This document shows, piece after piece, positions 3,678 through 51,567 of a DNA stretch of 64,000 bases. Origin of the DNA: Methanococcus maripaludis (GTDB taxonomy: Archaea > AGJL01 > Methanococci > Methanococcales > Methanococcaceae); NCBI RefSeq assembly GCF_013760955.1, contig NZ_JACDUL010000001.1, positions 24,481 to 88,480 on the forward strand. Direction: 5' to 3'. Position numbers and translations under genes: made by a program. The notes beneath the pieces were generated by a model. The model was given only the letters and a program-made list of their open reading frames with translations. It did not search any database and had not been told where the DNA came from. Positions within the stretch are counted from its first letter, which is position 1. Each line of letters starts with the position of its first letter.

Positions 3678-4442
3678 ATGTCAGTTCTAGAACTTAAAAA
3701 TCTTATCAAAAAATTTGGAAACGGTAAAAAGGACCTCGTTGCAGTTGATAATGTAGATTTATCAGTACAACATAATGAATTTGTATCAATAGTTGGACCT
3801 AGTGGCTGTGGAAAATCCACAATCTTAAGAATGATTGCAGGACTTGAAACTCCAACATCAGGTGGAATTTACTTAGATGAAAAGGAAGTTTTAGGGCCTG
3901 ATGCAGATCGGGGAATGGTATTTCAACAGTATACGCTTCTTCCGTGGAAAACAGTTCTTCAAAACGTTACTTTTGGACTTGAAATTAAAAAAATTCCAAA
4001 AGACGAAAGAATTGAAACTGCCAAAAAATTTATAAAAATGGTTGGACTCGAAGAATTTTGCGATTCATATCCTTATGAATTGAGCGGTGGAATGCAGCAA
4101 AGAGTTGCAATTGCAAGAACTCTTGCAAATAATCCAAAAATTGTGCTGATGGACGAACCCTTTGGGGCCCTTGATACGCAGACTAGGGCAGTTTTACAAG
4201 ATCACCTCTTAAAAATATGGGAAACTGAAAAAAAAACTGTTGTTTTTGTAACGCACAGTGTAGATGAGGCAGTTTATTTATCTGACCGTGTTGTCGTGAT
4301 GACAGCACGACCTGGAAAGATAAAAAGCATTATCGATATAGATTTAGATAGGCCTAGAAAAAGAACTAGCGTCGAATTCTTAGAATACAAGAAAAAAATA
4401 ATCGATGACTTAAAATCGGAAGTTTTGAAAACTTACATTTAA
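3678..4442 (+). CDS. ABC transporter ATP-binding protein, SsuB/TauB type
   Basis: 254-aa nucleotide-binding subunit that powers the permease encoded just upstream. Walker A is GPSGCGKST (about residue 40), the Q-loop lies in MVFQQYTLLPW, the signature is LSGGMQQR, Walker B is IVLMDEPFGALD and the switch histidine is in VFVTHSVDEA. Length and motif spacing are normal for the nitrate/sulfonate/bicarbonate importer class. Substrate unknown. Confidence 0.92.
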   Translation: MSVLELKNLIKKFGNGKKDLVAVDNVDLSVQHNEFVSIVGPSGCGKSTILRMIAGLETPTSGGIYLDEKEVLGPDADRGMVFQQYTLLPWKTVLQNVTFGLEIKKIPKDERIETAKKFIKMVGLEEFCDSYPYELSGGMQQRVAIARTLANNPKIVLMDEPFGALDTQTRAVLQDHLLKIWETEKKTVVFVTHSVDEAVYLSDRVVVMTARPGKIKSIIDIDLDRPRKRTSVEFLEYKKKIIDDLKSEVLKTYI

Positions 4443-4542
4443 TTATTATTTTTATACTCAAATTTATATATCTTAAAAGCATATTCTTTTTTAATGAACT
4501 ATTATTCAAAATATATGAAATTTAATTCATCAAAGGGATACT

Positions 4543-5397
4543 ATGCTGAGGGGAAAAGATGCAACACTTGCTGCAATAATAAATATAATTCTTGACGAAG
4601 AGCCAGAAACTCAGGATGATATTGCAGACAGGTTAAACGTAAGCAGACGATACGTTGCAAAACTGCTAAAACCGCTTGTAGATGGGGGAGCGATACTGCA
4701 CCCTTATGTCGTAAATCTTGAAAAATTAAAAGAATTTGAAGATTATATTGAAACTGATCGATATTTTAAAGAGATTTACGAAACTTTCGATAGGATGGGA
4801 ACTAACGTTATTCAAAATATAGATAAAGTGTTTGATTCATTAAAAACTCATGATTTGGATATTGCCAATAGCATTATTCTTGAAGATTATGCATTGAACC
4901 GGATGGAAGATGAAGTAAACCTCGTAATTAAACTAAAAGCTTCAAAATACATGGACATGAACAGCCTTATGCAGATATCAAATATTGCTGCAAATATCGA
5001 AAGATGCGGTGATTATCTTTCAAATATTGCGGAAGAAGTGGTAAATGGGCTTTTTGTTGACCCTGCAATAAAAAAAGAAATTTTTGAGATACGGGACATA
5101 ATTTCAAAGATGTTCGATCATGCAATGAATATGGTTAAAAATAAAACGATTGATACTGAAATTTACGAATTAGAAGGAAAACTTCACAAAAAACTCGATA
5201 TCATGATGGAAAAACTTTCAGAAAATCCTGATGAAAATTTGAAAGATATTAATCAGTTTATCCAATTTGGAATGTTTTTAAAGGATGTTGAAAGATTCGG
5301 GGATAGAAGTCTTAAAATATTTGAATTGGGTCGTGAATTCCACTACAATATTCCAAAAAATGTTAAAACTCCAGAATATGTAAGAAATTTGAAATAA
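4543..5397 (+). CDS. PhoU-domain regulator with N-terminal winged helix
   Basis: 284 aa. Residues 1-60 look like a winged helix-turn-helix (TQDDIADRLNVSRRYVAKLLKPL). Residues 75-270 form two alpha-helical PhoU repeats, with characteristic IERCGDYLSNIAEEV and VERFGDRSLKIFE segments that carry the metal-binding acidic motifs. Such fusions are archaeal phosphate-response regulators. No pst transporter gene is adjacent, and the ABC pair upstream is of the sulfonate type, so a link to phosphate is by family only. Confidence 0.85.
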   Translation: MLRGKDATLAAIINIILDEEPETQDDIADRLNVSRRYVAKLLKPLVDGGAILHPYVVNLEKLKEFEDYIETDRYFKEIYETFDRMGTNVIQNIDKVFDSLKTHDLDIANSIILEDYALNRMEDEVNLVIKLKASKYMDMNSLMQISNIAANIERCGDYLSNIAEEVVNGLFVDPAIKKEIFEIRDIISKMFDHAMNMVKNKTIDTEIYELEGKLHKKLDIMMEKLSENPDENLKDINQFIQFGMFLKDVERFGDRSLKIFELGREFHYNIPKNVKTPEYVRNLK

Positions 5398-5545
5398 TTT
5401 AATATTAAAATAATTTTGACATAAAACTTTTTAATTCGGCTTTTTTAACGAGATATTAATTAAAGGATGAATTATATATTGTATTTCATCGACATATTTA
5501 AATAATATCACTGCTTATGATGAAAAAACAACTTATGGTGAAATC

Positions 5546-6856
5546 ATGGAATTCTTGGGGAACGAAATGCTTACCGTTGAAGGTAAAAACTTAAAAATTG
5601 ACGGATATGATGCAAGCGAACTTGCTAAAACTTACGGAACTCCACTCTACGTCATGAGTGAAACGCAAACCGTTAAAAACTTTACAAGATACGTTGACTC
5701 ATTTAAAGAATACTCTGAAAAAACCGGAAAAGAATTCATAATTTCATTTGCATACAAAGCAAACACGAACCTTGCTGTAACAAAACTCCTCTCAAAACTC
5801 GGATGTGGTGCAGATATCGTGAGTGCAGGGGAATTGTACATTGCAAAACTTTCAAATGTTCCTTCCGAAAAAATTGTATTTAACGGAAACTGTAAATTAA
5901 AAGAAGAAATTAAAATGGGAATTGAAGCTGAAATAAGAGCATTTAACGTTGACAGCATCAGTGAACTTGTTTTAATTAATGAAACTGCAAAAGAAATGGG
6001 AAAAATTGCAAATGTTGCATTTAGGGTAAATCCAAACGTTGATGCAAAAACGCACCCTAAAATTTCAACAGGAATGAAAAAGAACAAATTCGGGCTCGAC
6101 ATTGAAAGCGGAATTGCACTTGAAACTATTAAAATGGCAGAAAAAATGGAAAACGTAAAAATTGTTGGAATTCACTGCCATATTGGTTCACAACTAACTT
6201 ACATCAGCCCATTTGTTGAAGAAGCTAGGAAAATCATGGATTTCGTAGTTTCACTCAAAAATGAAGGAATTGAAATAAAAGATGTAAATTTAGGTGGGGG
6301 CCTTGGAATCCCATATGATAAAAATACAAAAATCCCTGTTCAAAAAGATCTTTCAAAAGCAGTTCTCGATGTAATTTACGAATACGAAGGAAAAATCGAA
6401 CTTCCAAATTTAATATTGGAACCTGGAAGAAGTTTGGTTGCTACCGCGGGAGTTTTACTTGGAACTGTCGAACACGTCAAAGAAACACCTGTTGCAAAAT
6501 GGATAATGATTGATGCTGGAATGAACGACATGATGAGACCTGCAATCTATGAGGCATACCACGAAATCGTTCCTTGTACCATTAGAGACGAAAAAGAAGT
6601 TGTAAGCGTTGCAGGAGGACTTTGTGAAAGTTCCGATGTATTTGGAAAGGATAGGGAACTCTCAAAAATGGAAGTAAAAGATACCGTTGCAATTTTAGAC
6701 GTTGGAGCATACGGAATCAGCATGGCAAACAACTACAACTCAAGAGGAAAACCTGCAATGATCCTTACAAATGAAAAGGAAGTTTCATTAATCAGAGTTA
6801 GAGAAACCCTTGCAGATTTAATTTCAAAAGATATCGTACCAAACCATCTTTTGTAA
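5546..6856 (+). CDS. lysA: Diaminopimelate decarboxylase
   Basis: 436-aa fold-III PLP enzyme catalysing the last step of lysine synthesis, meso-diaminopimelate to L-lysine plus CO2. The PLP lysine lies in SFAYKANTN, the phosphate-binding glycine loop in LGGGLGIPY, and the active-site segment of the partner subunit in GLCESSDVF. The start is set by GGTG five bases before ATG at 5546. Length is typical. An AT-rich ATTTAAATA element at about 5495 is a plausible TATA box. Confidence 0.96.
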   Translation: MEFLGNEMLTVEGKNLKIDGYDASELAKTYGTPLYVMSETQTVKNFTRYVDSFKEYSEKTGKEFIISFAYKANTNLAVTKLLSKLGCGADIVSAGELYIAKLSNVPSEKIVFNGNCKLKEEIKMGIEAEIRAFNVDSISELVLINETAKEMGKIANVAFRVNPNVDAKTHPKISTGMKKNKFGLDIESGIALETIKMAEKMENVKIVGIHCHIGSQLTYISPFVEEARKIMDFVVSLKNEGIEIKDVNLGGGLGIPYDKNTKIPVQKDLSKAVLDVIYEYEGKIELPNLILEPGRSLVATAGVLLGTVEHVKETPVAKWIMIDAGMNDMMRPAIYEAYHEIVPCTIRDEKEVVSVAGGLCESSDVFGKDRELSKMEVKDTVAILDVGAYGISMANNYNSRGKPAMILTNEKEVSLIRVRETLADLISKDIVPNHLL

Positions 6857-6915
6857 ATTAAGTTATTTTTAAAACTTTTTTAAAAAAATAATAAATATCT
6901 AAAATTTTTAAAGTG

Positions 6916-7467
6916 TTAGTTATTGTAGTTCCAAAGACCTGTTTTTTCAGATTTTGCTGTTTTTTCGGTTTCTAAAAATCCAGCTTTCAATTCAAAATCA
7001 CTAACGTATACTCTTGCAAATCCATATTCTATCAAATTTTCGTTGAAATTTTCATTTTCCAAATATATGTATGCAAGATATCTTCCGTATTTATCCTGTT
7101 TATCACTGTTTTTATCAAAAACTACATATACCGATTTATTTTCAAGAGTATTTCGCGTGTAGTTTGTTGCCAAATGCCCCCAGTAATCTAAATATTCAGT
7201 ATCAGTAATTGGAGTTTCATAATCGATATAATATTCTGAAACACTGTTTTTTTGATAAGTTTCTGGAGTATCAACGCCCAAAAGCCTAATATTATAATCA
7301 ACCCCGTTTGAATCAACGTGCACGGTATCGCCATCAACCACACGAGTGACAGTTCCAGAAAAGTGTTCGTGAGAATCGATAAAGTCCCCTGAATCAATAT
7401 TATCATCAGAAATGCAACCTGAAAAAATCAAAAGTAAAATTGGAGCTAAAAAAATTATCTTTTTCAT
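6916..7467 (-). CDS. Secreted thermonuclease-like lipoprotein
   Basis: 183 aa. A lipoprotein signal (MKKIIFLAPILLLIFSGC) precedes a staphylococcal-nuclease domain. Family catalytic residues are visible: Arg and Glu in RLLGVDTPE and the second Arg in DKYGRYLAYIY, with metal-binding Asp in VVDGDTV. It probably degrades DNA or RNA outside the cell, tethered to the membrane. It starts 7 bp after trmO and ends the cbiD-trmO operon. Role in DNA scavenging is inference. Confidence 0.9.
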   Translation of the reverse strand: MKKIIFLAPILLLIFSGCISDDNIDSGDFIDSHEHFSGTVTRVVDGDTVHVDSNGVDYNIRLLGVDTPETYQKNSVSEYYIDYETPITDTEYLDYWGHLATNYTRNTLENKSVYVVFDKNSDKQDKYGRYLAYIYLENENFNENLIEYGFARVYVSDFELKAGFLETEKTAKSEKTGLWNYNN

Positions 7468-7474
7468 AATAGCC

Positions 7475-7858
7475 CTATAAATCCAGTTCTTTTGAGTATC
7501 TTTTTATATCAATTATTGGAGTTTCTGAAAATGCATCAATTTCTTCGATATATAATTTATTTCCAGAAATTTCTTCAATTTTTACAGTGTAAAGCGCAAT
7601 AGGGTTAGGCCTCATTGGAGATCTTGTAGAAAAAACACCCCTTATCGGGTTATTAATATTTCCTCTCGGGTGAACCTTTAAAGTCTTTCTTTTAGTTTCA
7701 TTGTCAGACCCGTCAAACCATAAAAAAACTAAAATCTTTGAATTTTTGGTTAATCCATCCATCCCACCTAAAAATTCGTCGTAAATTTCTAAATATGAGT
7801 TTTCCCCCTCTTTTTTAAACATCCCGATTTCAAAAATTTTGTATTCCTTTCTGTTCAT
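7475..7858 (-). CDS. trmO: tRNA (adenine37-N6)-methyltransferase, TrmO/TsaA-like
   Basis: 127-aa protein of the TrmO (UPF0066) family, which methylates N6-threonylcarbamoyladenosine at tRNA position 37 using S-adenosylmethionine. Core motifs VHPRGN, GVFSTRSPMRPNPI and the C-terminal TPIIDIKRY are present. I place the start at ATG 7858, preceded by AGGGTTGAT; the upstream TTG at 7885 would overlap cbiD and lacks a binding site. It begins 4 bp after the cbiD stop, so the genes are likely cotranscribed. Confidence 0.88.
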   Translation of the reverse strand: MNRKEYKIFEIGMFKKEGENSYLEIYDEFLGGMDGLTKNSKILVFLWFDGSDNETKRKTLKVHPRGNINNPIRGVFSTRSPMRPNPIALYTVKIEEISGNKLYIEEIDAFSETPIIDIKRYSKELDL

Positions 7859-7862
7859 AATA

Positions 7863-8963
7863 TCAACCCTGATCATATTTTCCAAGCATATTTCCTTTCA
7901 TATTGATTATAATACAGGAAAAATTAATTCCATCCCATCTTGAAGAAAGTCTTTCGACAACTCTTTTTGAAACATTGTCAAAAACTTCTTTTAAAATACC
8001 TTTTTCAGTCAAAATTTCAACTATATCTTCAGTTGTATTTGATTGAAGTATTTTTTGAAGTATTTCTACATCCTGTGTTACTAATGAAGTATAAGCACAG
8101 AGTATTTCGTTTCTTGCATCTGCGACTTTTGAATGGGTGTCAAAAATTCCGCCAGCAAGCTTTACGATTTTTCCAGCGTGTCCAAAGACAGTTATATCTT
8201 TAACACCTTTTTCTTTTGCCTTATTGAGCATGTAGTCCCAAAAATTTGAAACTTCAATAATTTGATCTTCTTCTGCATGTAATAATATTTTAGCATGCTT
8301 TGTTCCAATGTTTCCTGGAACAAATATTAGGTTTTCAAAATTATTTGCTAAAGCTACATCAATTTGTGGCGCGAGTGATTCTTTGTACGCGTCATTTGAC
8401 ATTGGCCGAACGATTCCAGTAGTTCCAAGAATCGAAATTCCGCCAATTATCCCAAGTTTAGGATTTAATGTTTTTTTGGCAATTTCATCCCCATTTGGAA
8501 CTGAAATTTTTACAGTTACACATTCATTATCAGTTAAAAGAGATTTTAAATTAGTTTCAATCATTTCTCTTGGTTTTGGATTTATTGCAGGTTTTCCAAG
8601 CGTTACCTGTAAACCAGATTTTGTAATTATTCCAACACCGATTCCCCCGATAATATCGACATTACTCGATTCTGAACTGTTGTTATCCAAATTAAGAGTA
8701 ACTTCTATTTCGATATCCATTCCATTTGTAATATCGATGTCCTCCCCTGAAAATTTTTCTACCGTTGAAATTGCAGTGTCTCCCTGTTTTTCAATGTTTT
8801 TAATTGGAATAATTAAGGAATCTTCTTTTAAATTTACAATTTCAACAAAATTTAATCTTTCATTATTTTTTAAAAAATAGAGTGCAGAATATGCTCCAGC
8901 AGCAGCACATGCGCCTGTGGTATACCCAAAAGTTTTTTCGAGTCTAAAATCAATCTTGCCCAT
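7863..8963 (-). CDS. cbiD: Cobalt-precorrin-5B (C1)-methyltransferase
   Basis: 366-aa CbiD of the anaerobic corrin pathway; it methylates C1 of cobalt-precorrin-5B. The hallmark N-terminal GYTTGACAAAGA and the glycine-rich IIGGISILGTTGIVRPMS are present, and FGHAGKIVKLAGG lies in the C-terminal half. Start chosen at ATG 8963 with GTGAT upstream; the GTG at 8972 is part of that ribosome-binding site. Other corrin genes in the window (cbiP, cbiT, cbiE, hemB) are scattered, not in one operon. Confidence 0.95.
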   Translation of the reverse strand: MGKIDFRLEKTFGYTTGACAAAGAYSALYFLKNNERLNFVEIVNLKEDSLIIPIKNIEKQGDTAISTVEKFSGEDIDITNGMDIEIEVTLNLDNNSSESSNVDIIGGIGVGIITKSGLQVTLGKPAINPKPREMIETNLKSLLTDNECVTVKISVPNGDEIAKKTLNPKLGIIGGISILGTTGIVRPMSNDAYKESLAPQIDVALANNFENLIFVPGNIGTKHAKILLHAEEDQIIEVSNFWDYMLNKAKEKGVKDITVFGHAGKIVKLAGGIFDTHSKVADARNEILCAYTSLVTQDVEILQKILQSNTTEDIVEILTEKGILKEVFDNVSKRVVERLSSRWDGINFSCIIINMKGNMLGKYDQG

Positions 8964-45955: not shown

Positions 45956-46567
45956 TTAGTTTATCAATTCTTTTTTAATTTTTAAAGATTCTATAACGAT
46001 GCGTTTTGCCATCTCGTCTAAAGTGTATGGTGTTATTGGTTCCATATCTTTTATAAATTTACCCGTACCAATTACCAAATGTCCTTTTGTTTCCATTTTT
46101 AAAAATTCCACAGGCCCTTTTTCAGACACTGCATCACCAATTTTAATTATTGGATTGAATCCAAATACCCCGTTAGTTCCAATTGCAACTTTTCCAGTGT
46201 TTTTACAGTATTCTACAATTTTTTTTCTAATTGGGAGAGTATCCCCCCCTGCAAAAACAATTAAAACTACATTTCCAGTAATTTTTTCGATATTTTCTTC
46301 AGTTATATCTTCAAAAAATGCTTCGATTCTTTCTGGGAAAAATTCTTTTAAAAAATTTACCTTATATTCTCCAAGTTTTGCACCGTGTTTTCTGTGCACT
46401 ACATCATTTTGATCAATTCGTGCCGCATCAAAAATCTGGAGCTTTTCAAATCCGCCCCTGTGAACTTCCAGTAAATCCATTGCAATTCTGATTCCAAGTC
46501 TTCCGCAACCAATAATAGAAACGGTTCCTTTCGGTTTTAAATTATCTTCCAGTGCTTTGATATCCAT
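45956..46567 (-). CDS. ThiF-like NAD/nucleotide-binding protein
   Basis: 203 aa with an E1/ThiF-like or Rossmann N-terminus (GTVSIIGCGRLGIRIAMDLLE) and an FDAARIDQNDVVHRKHG segment similar to the LIDxDxVExSNLxRQ region of E1 enzymes. It lacks the zinc cysteine pairs. It is divergent from the HTH/iron-sulfur gene that heads the fwd operon. Function unknown; a true adenylyltransferase role is doubtful. Start at ATG 46567 after GTGATTTTT. Confidence 0.65.
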   Translation of the reverse strand: MDIKALEDNLKPKGTVSIIGCGRLGIRIAMDLLEVHRGGFEKLQIFDAARIDQNDVVHRKHGAKLGEYKVNFLKEFFPERIEAFFEDITEENIEKITGNVVLIVFAGGDTLPIRKKIVEYCKNTGKVAIGTNGVFGFNPIIKIGDAVSEKGPVEFLKMETKGHLVIGTGKFIKDMEPITPYTLDEMAKRIVIESLKIKKELIN

Positions 46568-46665
46568 AAAAATCACGCATATAATATATTTATTTGAAAT
46601 TGACATTTTTCAATTAAATTTTTGAATTTACATATATAATTATCCTTTATTAATATAAAGATAAC

Positions 46666-46680
46666 GTTAGCAAACCTAAC
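46666..46680. promoter_or_regulatory. Inverted repeat in the fwd upstream region
   Basis: GTTAG-N5-CTAAC lies about 40 bp upstream of the TATA-like TATATATA (46721-46728) of the fwd operon and in the divergent region shared with the ThiF-like gene. It is a candidate operator for the HTH/iron-sulfur protein or another regulator. Confidence 0.4.
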
Positions 46681-46771
46681 ATAACTATATATAGATTACC
46701 ATTTGACTTTAGAAGAATCATATATATAGAAACGAGGCGTATGTTGTATATGACTCACATGGGATGAAAAT

Positions 46772-47218
46772 ATGCCAGAACATATACTATCAGGGATCAA
46801 AGCAGTAGTCGCAATAAATATGCGAAAAGAAGGGAAACTTCAAAGAGAGATAGCAGAGTTTCTAGAAATGGATCGTTCAATCATCTCCCACTACCTACAC
46901 GGCAGATATCCATCAGATAAGGTCATGAGAGTCTCTGAAGAGATTATAAATTTACCCCGAGAATACGGTATTCCATTAATTACTTCGCTTGGCGACAACA
47001 AGCAGATTACTAAAAAGTTAATAGAACGGATTTACAAAATAAAAATAAGTATTGACATGGAAAAGTGTATCGCGTGTGGCAAATGCCTTGAATGCGAATA
47101 CGGGGCAATTTCAGTATATTCCGAAGATATCGGCATATCAATAGACAGAGAAAAATGCATTCTTTGTTGTAAATGCGTTTCCGAATGTCCTGTTGGTGCT
47201 TTAAAAATAGTCAGATAA
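46772..47218 (+). CDS. HTH regulator with C-terminal ferredoxin domain
   Basis: 148 aa. Residues 5-50 contain a helix-turn-helix (KLQREIAEFLEMDRSIISHYLHG). Residues 92-148 form a ferredoxin-like domain. Its second cluster site is normal (CxxCxxCxxxCP at 129-139, with an extra Cys133). The first is unusual, CxxCxxCxxC (99, 102, 105, 108), one residue short and without the proline. It precedes fwdF by 22 bp. A redox-, iron- or metal-responsive regulator of fwd is inference; it might instead be a structural part of the complex. Confidence 0.75.
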   Translation: MPEHILSGIKAVVAINMRKEGKLQREIAEFLEMDRSIISHYLHGRYPSDKVMRVSEEIINLPREYGIPLITSLGDNKQITKKLIERIYKIKISIDMEKCIACGKCLECEYGAISVYSEDIGISIDREKCILCCKCVSECPVGALKIVR

Positions 47219-47240: not shown

Positions 47241-48299
47241 ATGAAAAACTTCAAAAAAGACGACAATGATGGCGTCATTGAAATTTCAAGAAGCGGCGTT
47301 GAAAAGAGAGTCTTGAAATGGGACGACTGCACCTGTGTTGGTTGCGGTATTTGTAGCGAAATCTGTCCTACAAGCGCTATAGAAATGGGGCCATTAGGTG
47401 CTATTTTTAAAGGAGAACTTGATGCTCCAAAATTGGATATCTCAGAAAAATGTGTTTTATGTGGTATGTGTGCATGTGCATGTCCCTTTGATGCAGTTAA
47501 ATTAAGCATTAACGACAAACCAATCACTGAAATGTCACAATACCCTAAAATCAAAAGAGGAATTGAATTAAATCAATCCAAATGTGTTTTATGTGAACAG
47601 TGTGAATTAGTATGCCCTCAGTGCGCTATTGACGTTGAAAGAGAACTTCCTGAAAGAAAATCTCTAGTATTGGGAGAAATTACAATTAAAAAAGATGCTT
47701 GTGTTTTGTGTGGAATCTGTGCTGAATACTGTCCTGCTGATGCAATTGAATTGATTCCAAATGAAATGAACGCTTTAAGTTTAAACCCAATTGCAGATAT
47801 TAAGGTGGATTTAGATGCTTGTGTATACTGTAAAGTGTGTGAAAAAGCATGCCCTCACAATGCAATTGAAGCAATTTGCTACAAATGTCCACTTGCAAGC
47901 AGAATTAAAGAGCCTGAACTTTACAAAGAAATCAAAGGACAAACAAACATTGACAAAGACCTCTGTGTATCCTGTGGATGGTGTGCAAACATCTGTCCTG
48001 CTGATGCAATAACAGTTGAAAAACCATTCGAAGGAGAATTAATCATTGACGAACCTGCATGTAACGCATGTGGTGCATGTATTTCAGTTTGTCCATGTAA
48101 CGCACTTGTATTCCCTCAACCTGAAAAACAGGGAGACAAAGTACCTAATGTTGTCGTTAACCAGGATGTATGTATCCTCTGTGGTGCATGTACACACTCA
48201 TGCCCTGTTGATGCATTGACCGTTAAGAGAACAAAAATAAATATGACCGAAGCAAATGCACCTGCATGGAAAAAAGCTTTCTCAAAATTAATGAAATAA
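47241..48299 (+). CDS. fwdF: Tungsten/molybdenum formylmethanofuran dehydrogenase polyferredoxin subunit
   Basis: 352-aa polyferredoxin. Eight CxxCxxCxxxCP motifs are visible, for example CTCVGCGICSEICP, CVLCGMCACACP and CVSCGWCANICP, giving up to eight [4Fe-4S] clusters. It conducts electrons to the active site of formylmethanofuran dehydrogenase, the first step of CO2 reduction to methane. A strong GGAGG precedes the ATG. First structural gene of fwdFGDAC. Confidence 0.93.
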   Translation: MKNFKKDDNDGVIEISRSGVEKRVLKWDDCTCVGCGICSEICPTSAIEMGPLGAIFKGELDAPKLDISEKCVLCGMCACACPFDAVKLSINDKPITEMSQYPKIKRGIELNQSKCVLCEQCELVCPQCAIDVERELPERKSLVLGEITIKKDACVLCGICAEYCPADAIELIPNEMNALSLNPIADIKVDLDACVYCKVCEKACPHNAIEAICYKCPLASRIKEPELYKEIKGQTNIDKDLCVSCGWCANICPADAITVEKPFEGELIIDEPACNACGACISVCPCNALVFPQPEKQGDKVPNVVVNQDVCILCGACTHSCPVDALTVKRTKINMTEANAPAWKKAFSKLMK

Positions 48300-48321: not shown

Positions 48322-48564
48322 ATGTACAAACTTGAAGTATATCCTGATAAATGTCACGGATGCGGAAACTGTGTTGTTGCATGCCCAGTAAATGCACAAG
48401 ACCCTGATGTATACGGTGGCAAAGGACCGAGCAGTGATGAAAAATTAATTATGAGAATAGAAAATGGTGTTGTATCCGTCGTAAATGGGGACTTATGCGG
48501 TGGATGCGGTGCATGTATTGAGGCATGCCCTGTTGATGCCATTAAATTAGTTATTGTAAAATAA
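48322..48564 (+). CDS. fwdG: Formylmethanofuran dehydrogenase subunit G (ferredoxin)
   Basis: 80-aa two-cluster ferredoxin with CHGCGNCVVACPVNA and CGGCGACIEACPVDA motifs. It carries electrons between the polyferredoxin FwdF and the catalytic subunit. Start at ATG 48322 after GGTGATTTA; TTG 48301 has no site. Confidence 0.92.
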   Translation: MYKLEVYPDKCHGCGNCVVACPVNAQDPDVYGGKGPSSDEKLIMRIENGVVSVVNGDLCGGCGACIEACPVDAIKLVIVK

Positions 48565-48605: not shown

Positions 48606-48992
48606 ATGAAATTTATGCTAAATACGGGACGAACCATCTGGCAAGGCGAAGCCATTGAAGCTGGAAAGAACCTTGAAATGTACAGGAAAGCTGCAGGAGT
48701 CTGCTACATGAATCCAGAAGACATGGATGCATTGGGAGTTAAAGATGGCGATGCAATAAAAGTAACTTCAGAATACGGTGACGTTGCAGTAAATGCAATT
48801 ACAACAGACCAGCCAGCTCCAATTGGTATGATATTCATCCCAATGGGACCTTGGGCAAATAGGGTTGTTTTACCAGATACTGAAAGTACAGCAATGCCCT
48901 CTTTTAAAGGACCTCTTGAAGTAAACGTCGAAAAAACTGACGAAGAAGTACTGTTAATGTCTGATCTAATGAGAAAAGCATACATTGAATAA
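48606..48992 (+). CDS. fwdD: Formylmethanofuran dehydrogenase subunit D
   Basis: 128-aa subunit with a molybdopterin dinucleotide-binding barrel: DALGVKDGDAIKVTSEYGDVAV and FIPMGPWANRVV. It helps hold the bis-pterin metal cofactor together with FwdB, whose gene is not in the window. Start at ATG 48606 after GGTGATATT. Confidence 0.92.
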   Translation: MKFMLNTGRTIWQGEAIEAGKNLEMYRKAAGVCYMNPEDMDALGVKDGDAIKVTSEYGDVAVNAITTDQPAPIGMIFIPMGPWANRVVLPDTESTAMPSFKGPLEVNVEKTDEEVLLMSDLMRKAYIE

Positions 48993-49012: not shown

Positions 49013-50716
49013 ATGGAATATATCATAAGAAATGGTACCGTCTACGACCCTAAAAACAAGGTCAACGGAGAAAAGATGGATATCTGCGTAAAAGACGGAA
49101 AAATCGTAGAATCTGTATCAAAAAATGCTTTAGAAATTGATGCAAATAAAAAAGTAGTAATGGCAGGTGGTGTTGATTCACACAGCCACATTGCTGGTGC
49201 TAAAGTAAATACTGGAAGGACACTAAGACCTGAAGACAGTAAAAAAGATCTATTTTCAAAAGAAGGATTGAGACAAGGTTCTGGATTTTCAATACCTTCG
49301 ACATTTAAAACAGGTTACCAATACTCCGGTATGGGTTACACAACAGTTATCGAAGCAGCTATGCCGCCGCTTGTTGCAAGACACACACACGAAGAATTTA
49401 TGGATTTACCACAAATCGACAAAGCTGCAATGCCATTATTTGGTAACAGCTGGATGGTACTCGAATACTTGAAAAATGGCGATTTGAGTATGTGCGCTGC
49501 ATACGTTGCATGGCTTTTAAGAGTAACAAAAGGATATGCAATAAAAATCGTAAACCCTGGTGGAACCGAAGCTTGGGGTTGGGGTAAAAACGTACACGGT
49601 TTAGATGATGAAGTTCCATACTTTGGAATTACACCAAGAGAAATCGTAACCGGACTTGCAAAAGTAAACGAAATGCTCGGATTACCCCATTCCGTTCACG
49701 TACACCCAAATAACCTCGGTCACCCCGGAAACTGGGAAACTACCATTGACACAATGGATTGTGTAAAAGATATCAAAGCTAAACCAAAATTCGGTGAAAG
49801 GGATACTGTTTACTATAACACCCACTTACAATTCCACTCATACGGTGGAACTTCATGGAAAGACTGTGTAAGTAAAGGTGTAGAAACTGCAGATTATGTG
49901 AACAAACACAAACACGTAATGATCGATGTTGGTCAGGTTACACTTGATGAAACCACCACAATGACTGCGGATGGACCAATGGAATACGATCTCCACATGA
50001 CAAACGGCCTTAAATGGGCAAACTGTGATGTTGAGCTTGAAACCGGTTCAGGTGTTGTTCCATTTATCTACTCACCGAAAGGACCAGTTTACGCCCTCCA
50101 GTGGGCTATTGGTTTGGATATTTTCCTCTACACAAATCCTGAAAAATTAATTTTAACAACAGACCACCCTAATGCAGGACCATTCGTAAGATACCCAAGA
50201 GTTATCGCTTGGTTACTTAGCAAAGAATACAGAGATGACTGGATTCAGAACCGAGTTCATGCATGGGCTGCACAAAAAAGCCACATAACTGAAACCGACA
50301 GAGAATACTCAATGTATGAAATTGCACAGATTACAAGAGCAAATTCATCAAAAGTACTCGGTTTAAGTGGCGACAGAGGCCATTTAGGTGTTGGTGCTAA
50401 AGCAGACGTTTCAATATACGACATTAGCCCTGAAGAAAAATCAGGTAAAAAGATAGAAAAAGCATTCCTTGAAGCAGCCTATGTGTTAAAAAACGGCGAT
50501 ATAGTTGTAAAAAACGGAAATGTTGTAAAAGAAGTTTATGGGGATACAATCTTTGTAAACGCAGAGGTAAACGAGACTTTAGAAGCAGAACTCTTAAAAG
50601 ACCTCAACATGAAGTTTAGAAAACTCTATTCCGTGAACATGGAAAATTACCCGGTTCAAGATGCTTATGCAAACAGCTGGATGCCTATAAACATTGATGC
50701 TACTGAAATACAATAA
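49013..50716 (+). CDS. fwdA: Formylmethanofuran dehydrogenase subunit A
   Basis: 567-aa amidohydrolase-type subunit that joins formate made by FwdB to methanofuran. Metal-binding His occur in VDSHSHIAG and VHVHPNN, with further His in TTDHPNAGPF and a conserved lysine region (GYAIKIVNPGG). Length is standard. GGTG lies five bases before ATG. Confidence 0.95.
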   Translation: MEYIIRNGTVYDPKNKVNGEKMDICVKDGKIVESVSKNALEIDANKKVVMAGGVDSHSHIAGAKVNTGRTLRPEDSKKDLFSKEGLRQGSGFSIPSTFKTGYQYSGMGYTTVIEAAMPPLVARHTHEEFMDLPQIDKAAMPLFGNSWMVLEYLKNGDLSMCAAYVAWLLRVTKGYAIKIVNPGGTEAWGWGKNVHGLDDEVPYFGITPREIVTGLAKVNEMLGLPHSVHVHPNNLGHPGNWETTIDTMDCVKDIKAKPKFGERDTVYYNTHLQFHSYGGTSWKDCVSKGVETADYVNKHKHVMIDVGQVTLDETTTMTADGPMEYDLHMTNGLKWANCDVELETGSGVVPFIYSPKGPVYALQWAIGLDIFLYTNPEKLILTTDHPNAGPFVRYPRVIAWLLSKEYRDDWIQNRVHAWAAQKSHITETDREYSMYEIAQITRANSSKVLGLSGDRGHLGVGAKADVSIYDISPEEKSGKKIEKAFLEAAYVLKNGDIVVKNGNVVKEVYGDTIFVNAEVNETLEAELLKDLNMKFRKLYSVNMENYPVQDAYANSWMPINIDATEIQ

Positions 50717-50748: not shown

Positions 50749-51567
50749 ATGAATGAATTAATTCTTAATTTGAAGGGCGATGTATCAGTCCCTATTGAAG
50801 TAGATAAAATACTTCCAGAAAAAATTCAAGAAATGAGTTTAGAAGAAATCTCAAAAATTGAATTAATACAGGGAAATAAAACTGCTAAAATGAGTGAAAT
50901 CTTTGATATTGAACTCAAAGAAAGTACTGTTGCAAAAGTAATCATTAACAATTGCTCCAAAAAAGTTAAAAGAATCGGCGAAAAAATGACTTCTGGCGAA
51001 ATCGTTGTAAATGGAGATGCTGGAATGTACGTTGGAGTCGAAATGAAAGGCGGAAAAATTACCGTAAATGGGGATGCTGAAAGCTGGGTTGGCCAAAACC
51101 TCAAAGGTGGAGAAATTACCATTAACGGAAACGCTGAAAACTACGTAGGTTCTGCATACCGGGGCGACTGGAGAGGAATGAGTGGTGGAACAATTACCAT
51201 CACAGGTAACGCCGGATCCGAACTTGGAGAATACCTAAAAGGCGGAACGATTGTTATTAAAGGAAATACAAAAATCATGCCTGGAGTTCACCAAAACGGC
51301 GGTATGATAATTATTGAAGGAGATATTGAAGGAAGAGCTGGCGGGGAAATGATGAAAGGTGCTATCGTAGTTTACGGTAAAATCTTAGAAGCGCTCCCTT
51401 CATTCAAATTCGAAGGAATAGTTGAAGACCCACTCGTTAAATTATCTAAAAAAGATGCCGGAACCCAGTTAAAAGGAACATTTATAAAATTCACCGGAGA
51501 CTACGTAAACAACAAACCTAAAGGGGAACTTTACGCGGCTATCGATAACAATAAAAACTTACTCTAA
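50749..51567 (+). CDS. fwdC: Formylmethanofuran dehydrogenase subunit C
   Basis: 272-aa subunit with the glutamate-synthase alpha-C type beta-helix: repeated G-X-X-G turns such as GEIVVNGDAGMYVG, GKITVNGDAESWVG and GTIVIKGN. It is a scaffold for the Fwd complex. GGTGAAATT precedes ATG. Last gene of the visible operon. Confidence 0.94.
   Translation: MNELILNLKGDVSVPIEVDKILPEKIQEMSLEEISKIELIQGNKTAKMSEIFDIELKESTVAKVIINNCSKKVKRIGEKMTSGEIVVNGDAGMYVGVEMKGGKITVNGDAESWVGQNLKGGEITINGNAENYVGSAYRGDWRGMSGGTITITGNAGSELGEYLKGGTIVIKGNTKIMPGVHQNGGMIIIEGDIEGRAGGEMMKGAIVVYGKILEALPSFKFEGIVEDPLVKLSKKDAGTQLKGTFIKFTGDYVNNKPKGELYAAIDNNKNLL

Follow-up and report, generated by a model that had tools for sequence, protein, structure and literature searches.

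FwdH, a helix-turn-helix ferredoxin protein at the head of the fwd operon of Methanococcus maripaludis, as a candidate autoregulator

Little is understood of how the first, CO2-fixing step of hydrogenotrophic methanogenesis is controlled. The gene that we propose here as its regulator has so far been carried as an enzyme subunit. Several described systems offer points of comparison. The bacterial Fe-S transcription factors IscR, FNR, RirA, and WhiB (Rrf2 winged helix, Crp fold, and WhiB) share the logic that we propose for FwdH, in that the regulator's cluster tunes DNA binding, with autoregulation, but they are built on different folds. To our knowledge, none of them is a helix-turn-helix (HTH) joined to an eight-cysteine ferredoxin domain. 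In M. maripaludis itself, NrpR senses 2-oxoglutarate and uses paired palindromic operators at the promoter of an expensive metalloenzyme. That arrangement is like the one proposed below, although NrpR has no Fe-S domain and differs from FwdH in its signal, operator, and fold.

Two further systems belong to formylmethanofuran dehydrogenase. Tfx is an HTH regulator adjoining the molybdenum fmdECB operon (PMC3087415), and so resembles FwdH as an HTH protein beside an operon for this enzyme. Tfx-like proteins were weak matches to our FwdH HTH profile, and one of them (L240:1749-2159 in genome G037) adjoins an fmdB-like gene; unlike FwdH, these matches have 0-1 cysteines and lack a ferredoxin domain. 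In Methanothermobacter, the gene order is fwdHFGDACB, and FwdH is given as part of the enzyme "FwdA-DFGH" (PMC3087415). A search of open-licence papers turned up none on MMP1244, none describing an HTH-ferredoxin protein as a regulator of fwd, and no measurements of FwdH expression or binding.

The fwdH gene, its product, and its operon

The sequence analyzed here (the window) is a 64,000-nucleotide stretch of one M. maripaludis contig. A preliminary description made from the sequence alone had read one of its genes as an HTH fused to a ferredoxin domain at the head of the fwd operon, and both points were borne out. The gene, fwdH (46772..47218, +), begins with ATG in the window's ORF list and encodes a 148-residue protein with an HTH and a 2x[4Fe-4S]-type ferredoxin domain, as judged from the ORF, Pfam, and orthologues. 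The HTH covers residues 24-42 (46841..46897, +), with a recognition helix at 35-42 (RSIISHYL), and is defined by AlphaFold helices, invariant residues, and HTH_3. The ferredoxin domain, residues 91-147 (47042..47212, +), is defined by Fer4 matches and eight invariant cysteines. Both Fer4 motifs exceed the Pfam cut-offs in the window protein, which itself scores 17.0 bits against HTH_3, below the 23-bit cut-off; across the family, the HTH_3 match reaches E<=0.01 in 50 of 51 proteins, the best at 2e-9. AlphaFold, run with 51 homologues, predicted six helices including the HTH followed by a compact ferredoxin domain (mean pLDDT 92, pTM 0.83), with the HTH helices 24-31 and 35-42 at pLDDT > 90. 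In a full-length alignment of 51 sequences from two phyla, all eight cysteines are invariant, as are R35, H40, Y41, and G44. Conservation is highest in the N-terminal 50 residues: mean pairwise identity is 0.87 over residues 1-16, 0.68 over 17-50, and 0.47-0.51 in the ferredoxin part.

For the window protein, NCBIfam returned no specific family, only general ferredoxin-containing models far under their cut-offs, and a Foldseek search with the whole protein gave ferredoxin-domain matches only, none at E<=0.001. The protein gave no match to the Tfx family model; Pfam returned only Fer4 and subthreshold HTH_3/HTH_19 at E<=0.1. The IscR/Rrf2 and FNR/Crp families had no Pfam match, either in the window protein or among the 25 families listed for the 51 members.

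Downstream, the order in the window is fwdH, then fwdF, fwdG, fwdD, fwdA, and fwdC. The polyferredoxin gene fwdF (47241..48299, +; NF042909 at 480 bits, cut-off 375) starts 22 bp past the fwdH stop. It is followed by a fwdG-type gene for a 2[4Fe-4S] protein (48322..48564, +), assigned by its Fer4 domains, position, and size, and by fwdD (48606..48992, +; NF042908 at 233 bits, cut-off 175), whose start we set at an ATG within a TTG-started ORF. The ORFs of fwdA (49013..50716, +) and fwdC (50749..51567, +) were recognized by their position and by sequence like that in relatives, N-terminal sequence in the case of fwdA. In the loci examined, those of Methanobacteriota included, fwdH likewise lies directly before fwdF. 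At one locus (L031 in G037), the order is H-F-G-D-A-C-B, and because this matches the published fwdHFGDACB, we identify the window gene as fwdH, a name that the preliminary description had not included. That description had asked for conservation across methanogens: full-length orthologues are present in 36/36 Methanococcales genomes searched with the HTH profile (identity 44-97%), and HTH-domain profile matches in 116 of 150 Methanobacteriota genomes. The Methanothermobacter protein is orthologous (about 36% identity), lies directly upstream of fwdF, and likewise combines an HTH with two ferredoxin motifs. It differs in being named as an enzyme subunit, in the normal spacing of its first motif, and in an operator half-site of TGTGT rather than TGTKAG.

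The divergent ThiF-like gene was indeed found at 45956..46567 (-; PF00899, 39 bits), but the shared upstream region on which the preliminary description had remarked was not general. ThiF/NadA neighbors occur in only 5 examined loci, the five nearest (L001-L005), and the divergent genes were therefore rejected as part of the conserved unit. Since the palindromes described below persist beside other neighbors where ThiF/NadA are absent, the divergent arrangement is incidental, and it is with fwdH that the operator goes.

A second claim did not survive the comparison. The first cluster motif in the window (47066-47095, +) runs from C99 to C108 as C-x2-C-x2-C-x2-C (CIACGKCLEC), one residue below the usual length, while the second (47156-47188, +) is a normal CxxCxxCxxxCP and reads CILCCKCVSECP. 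The shortened CxxCxxCxxC had been taken as the mark of a cluster sensing redox, iron, or tungsten status. It is present in every Methanococcales FwdH sequence inspected; those inspected from Methanobacteriota all have the normal CxxCxxCxxxC instead, CIGCGLCVDxC or similar. Because the shortening is confined to Methanococcales, while normally spaced Methanobacteriota orthologues keep the same operon position and operators, we rejected it as an essential sensor signature; the function common to FwdH of both phyla, whatever it is, does not require it. The fourth cysteine of motif 1 is a ligand of the second cluster in 8-Fe ferredoxins, and the shorter spacing may therefore change cluster II in the Methanococcales proteins.

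Paired palindromes at the fwdH promoter

Upstream of fwdH, the preliminary description had noted a GTTAG-N5-CTAAC repeat. The repeat is real: GTTAGCAAACCTAAC occupies 46666-46680 with zero mismatches, within the putative operator O1 (CGTTAG-CAAAC-CTAACA, 46665..46681, no strand assigned). By itself such a site is weak, as most 64-kb windows should contain GTTAG-N5-CTAAC with at most one mismatch, at an expected frequency of about one per window. The copy upstream of fwdH gains significance from being the only exact one in the 1.76-Mb genome and from its positional conservation in two phyla. Phylogenetic footprinting and its position at the gene's own promoter support as probable the earlier suggestion that it is a FwdH operator regulating fwd.

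The first TATA box, TATATATAG (46686..46694, +), begins 4 bp past O1 and is conserved in both phylum alignments. In relatives, an O1-like palindrome likewise lies in the region upstream of fwdH, separated by about 4-6 bp from a TATATATA box that follows it. Its consensus is TGTKAG-N5-CTMACA in Methanococcales; Methanobacteriota have TGTGTR-N5-YACACA. We scored a locus as positive when a palindrome plus TGT/ACA score of at least 9 of 12 was followed by a TATA-like box, with dinucleotide-preserving shuffles as the control. By this rule, O1 with its TATA box was found at 33/36 Methanococcales and 27/30 Methanobacteriota loci, against shuffled means of 2.7 and 1.6; under one fixed criterion, the inverted repeat lies at the gene's own promoter in 60/66 loci (shuffled mean, 4.3), these and the O2 counts below being locus counts uncorrected for shared ancestry.

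A second set of elements lies closer to the gene. A putative BRE with TATA box 2, TTTAGAAGAATCATATATATAG (46708..46729, +; the TATA box itself at 46721-46729), is a conserved block with a probable promoter role. It reads TAgAanAA..TATATA in Methanococcales, the Methanobacteriota form being TaGTAGnaA..TATAT. Beyond it is the O2 region, TGTTGTATATGACTCACA (46742..46759, no strand assigned). In the window its right half-site, CTCACA (46754-46759), is clear and stands 78 bp from the right half-site of O1; the left half is degenerate in this genus. An O2 right half 76-79 bp downstream of that of O1 and before the start codon was found at 15/33 Methanococcales and 26/27 Methanobacteriota O1 loci, and the best-scoring spacings among all those from 40 to 119 bp were 78 and 77. 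Relatives carry complete O2 palindromes at 76-79 bp. Neither O2 nor this spacing was part of the preliminary description. The two phylum alignments, built separately (effective 21 and 20 sequences), both retain O1, TATATATA, TTTCtAtTT, TAgtAGaA..TATATA, O2, and the ribosome-binding site; upstream of O1, little is conserved. As the same arrangement recurs in two phyla whose proteins are about 35% identical, the common layout would be hard to explain without selection.

There are exceptions. One locus (L049 in G025, with fwdH at L049:1111-1514) has fwdH-fwdF without visible O1 or O2, and its promoter region looks unlike all others; two more (L050 and L115) carry weak operator variants. Comparing operator half-sites by eye with the residues of the recognition helix yielded no clean rule.

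O2 might instead act in RNA, as a 17-nucleotide hairpin before the ribosome-binding site that controls translation, leaving O1 unrelated or vestigial. The Methanobacteriota O2, TGTGTGATTAACACACA, is able to form a stem-loop and abuts GGTGA. O1, however, is the same motif and, lying upstream of its TATA box, is not transcribed from the adjacent promoter; in many Methanococcales it is also the better palindrome of the two, and TATA box 2, if used, would start the transcript inside O2. We therefore think control at the RNA level very improbable.

A six-codon mini-ORF (ATG ACT CAC ATG GGA TGA, 46750-46767) overlaps O2 and ends four bases before fwdH. Similar sequences occur in other Methanococcus and at two loci (L012 and L013) of another genus, and the mini-ORF may be only the operator plus the ribosome-binding site.

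Natural loss of fwdH and distribution of the palindromes

In one Methanobacteriota genus (g15), nearly all genomes lack a FwdH-like match, the few matches listed being weak, and fwdA is present. This genus is presumably Methanosphaera, methanogens that do not reduce CO2. Eight of its loci (L217-L222, L224, and L225) keep fwdG-D-B-A-C and lack both fwdH and fwdF, and these eight stretches, each about 9 kb long, contained no TGTGT-N7-ACACA with at most one mismatch. In another genus, the control locus L226 has fwdH, fwdF, and both sites 77 bp apart. In a different lineage, G036 has a fwd operon with fwdF, without FwdH and without the operators.

Because fwdH was lost along with fwdF, the first of these losses also fits FwdH as a partner of FwdF. 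On such a reading, FwdH would be an electron-transfer subunit or accessory ferredoxin of Fwd, its HTH-like domain a docking module, and the palindromes would serve some other regulator. Its assignment to the enzyme FwdA-DFGH (PMC3087415) points the same way, as do its place beside fwdF in one apparent operon and the resemblance of its ferredoxin domain to FwdF and MvhB. Yet a search of the solved Fwd entries 5t5i, 7bkb, 9sfi, and 9sw6 with the FwdH HTH profile matched no chain, and the full-length profile found only polyferredoxins, FwdG, and other ferredoxin-type chains. These structures come from several methanogens, and the FwdF of one (9sfi chain T) is almost identical to that of the window. 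Absence from solved complexes weakens the case for a subunit, although a loose or substoichiometric one can drop out on purification. The HTH region is, moreover, the part of FwdH that is most conserved, and palindromes suited to a dimeric HTH protein sit at the gene's own promoter. Taken together, a role as an enzyme subunit seems improbable to us.

We also asked, by pattern searches only, how widely the operator occurs. In seven Methanococcus genomes, the pattern with at most one mismatch was no commoner than a reversed-pattern control. One extra exact hit in the window's own genome (L141:6899), with a second nearby, falls in a stretch without protein ORFs (4202-8159) that is possibly rRNA, and a hit in G006 lies inside an FdhB-like gene. 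With matches at control frequency, and those inspected in an ORF-free stretch or inside genes, a wider regulon was rejected in Methanococcus, where the operator appears essentially private to the fwdH operon. No operator was found before fwdB in 30 loci, fwdB being elsewhere in the genome in Methanococcales. Genomes of genus g11 each have 3-6 copies of TGTGT-N7-ACACA versus 1-2 for the control, so a few further sites may exist there.

Two other observations came from these loci. Most Methanococcales fwdB copies (L147-L176) contain one in-frame TGA, as expected for selenocysteine. In seven of the eight genus g11 genomes searched, a palindrome, TGTGTGTATGAGACACACA (L192:1501-1519), precedes a methyltransferase-like gene, and the eighth has a version differing by one base. 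The palindrome is possibly the operator of some other regulator.

A proposed autoregulatory circuit and related proteins

The HTH, the palindromes at the gene's own promoter, and their shared conservation and shared absence make autoregulation the best reading of these data. FwdH probably regulates its own operon, and, as a whole explanation, it is likely to be an Fe-S-dependent autoregulator of that operon and not a stable subunit of Fwd. We infer three things here, namely, that FwdH is the operator-binding protein, that it represses, and what it senses; another protein could occupy the putative operators.

We envision that a FwdH dimer, one protomer for each half-site, would bind TGTKAG-N5-CTMACA (TGTGTR-N5-YACACA in Methanobacteriota). 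At O1, it would sit just upstream of TATA box 1, over the position of the BRE; at O2, about 78 bp downstream, it would sit at or near the start predicted from TATA box 2, beside the ribosome-binding site. With both operators filled, initiation would be blocked and transcription of fwdHFGDAC limited, a negative autoregulation. The 2[4Fe-4S] domain would set DNA binding according to the presence or redox state of its clusters, so that synthesis of the Fe-S-rich Fwd would track the supply of Fe-S clusters or reduced ferredoxin. We lean slightly toward repression as the mode of action; whether FwdH senses through its cluster is an even call.

The main rival to repression is activation from O1. Archaeal activators often bind immediately upstream of a TATA box. 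FwdH bound at O1 would then recruit TFB/TBP, with the ferredoxin domain turning activation on, and the position of O1, immediately upstream of a TATA box that is conserved along with it, is typical of such activators. O2, by contrast, coincides with or follows the predicted start, beside the ribosome-binding site, a repressor-like placement that is well conserved in Methanobacteriota. Expression of fwd also appears constitutive or nearly so: under H2 limitation, FwdF, FwdD, FwdA, and FwdC shift by only 0.20-0.28 log2 (PMC2723118), and the tungsten enzyme is formed constitutively (PMC3087415). Activation thus seems unlikely to us.

These published results also argue against strong switching, whether by H2 (PMC2723118) or by Mo/W (PMC3087415). 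Because little response to H2 and a constitutive tungsten enzyme fit homeostatic feedback better than an on/off switch, we favor Fe-S-dependent negative autoregulation. FwdH might, in addition, exchange electrons with the ferredoxin pool or with FwdF/FwdG, letting the redox poise for CO2 reduction set Fwd synthesis, although we put this forward tentatively. That such a ferredoxin-pool feedback loop is old enough to be common to Methanococcales and Methanobacteriota is, to the same degree, a speculative possibility. If DNA binding does depend on the cluster, FwdH would be an archaeal Fe-S regulator, an HTH plus a bacterial-type ferredoxin, built unlike the classical bacterial ones. With one named protein and two short DNA sites, in the genetically tractable Methanococcus and Methanothermobacter, the proposal is directly testable.

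Proteins of related design were also seen. In two Methanococcales genomes, an HTH-ferredoxin paralogue of FwdH is encoded beside korABC-like 2-oxoacid:ferredoxin oxidoreductase genes (L032:7953-8432 and L033:4397-4876, both -). The FwdH operators are absent upstream of these two genes. Since such Kor-linked paralogues exist, HTH-ferredoxin regulators of ferredoxin-dependent enzymes may form a small class.

The FwdH HTH profile also reached weakly into a further, distinct HTH family, whose members carry a Cys-rich segment, CEICRKxRTEDILCxLHK...CxxC, at the C terminus (L241:2151-2531, L242:968-1387, L243:1539-1961, L245:1316-1786, and L246:1389-1748). Several of its genes lie beside cysE/cysK-like genes, and the family appears to be a further putative regulator that binds a metal or a cluster.
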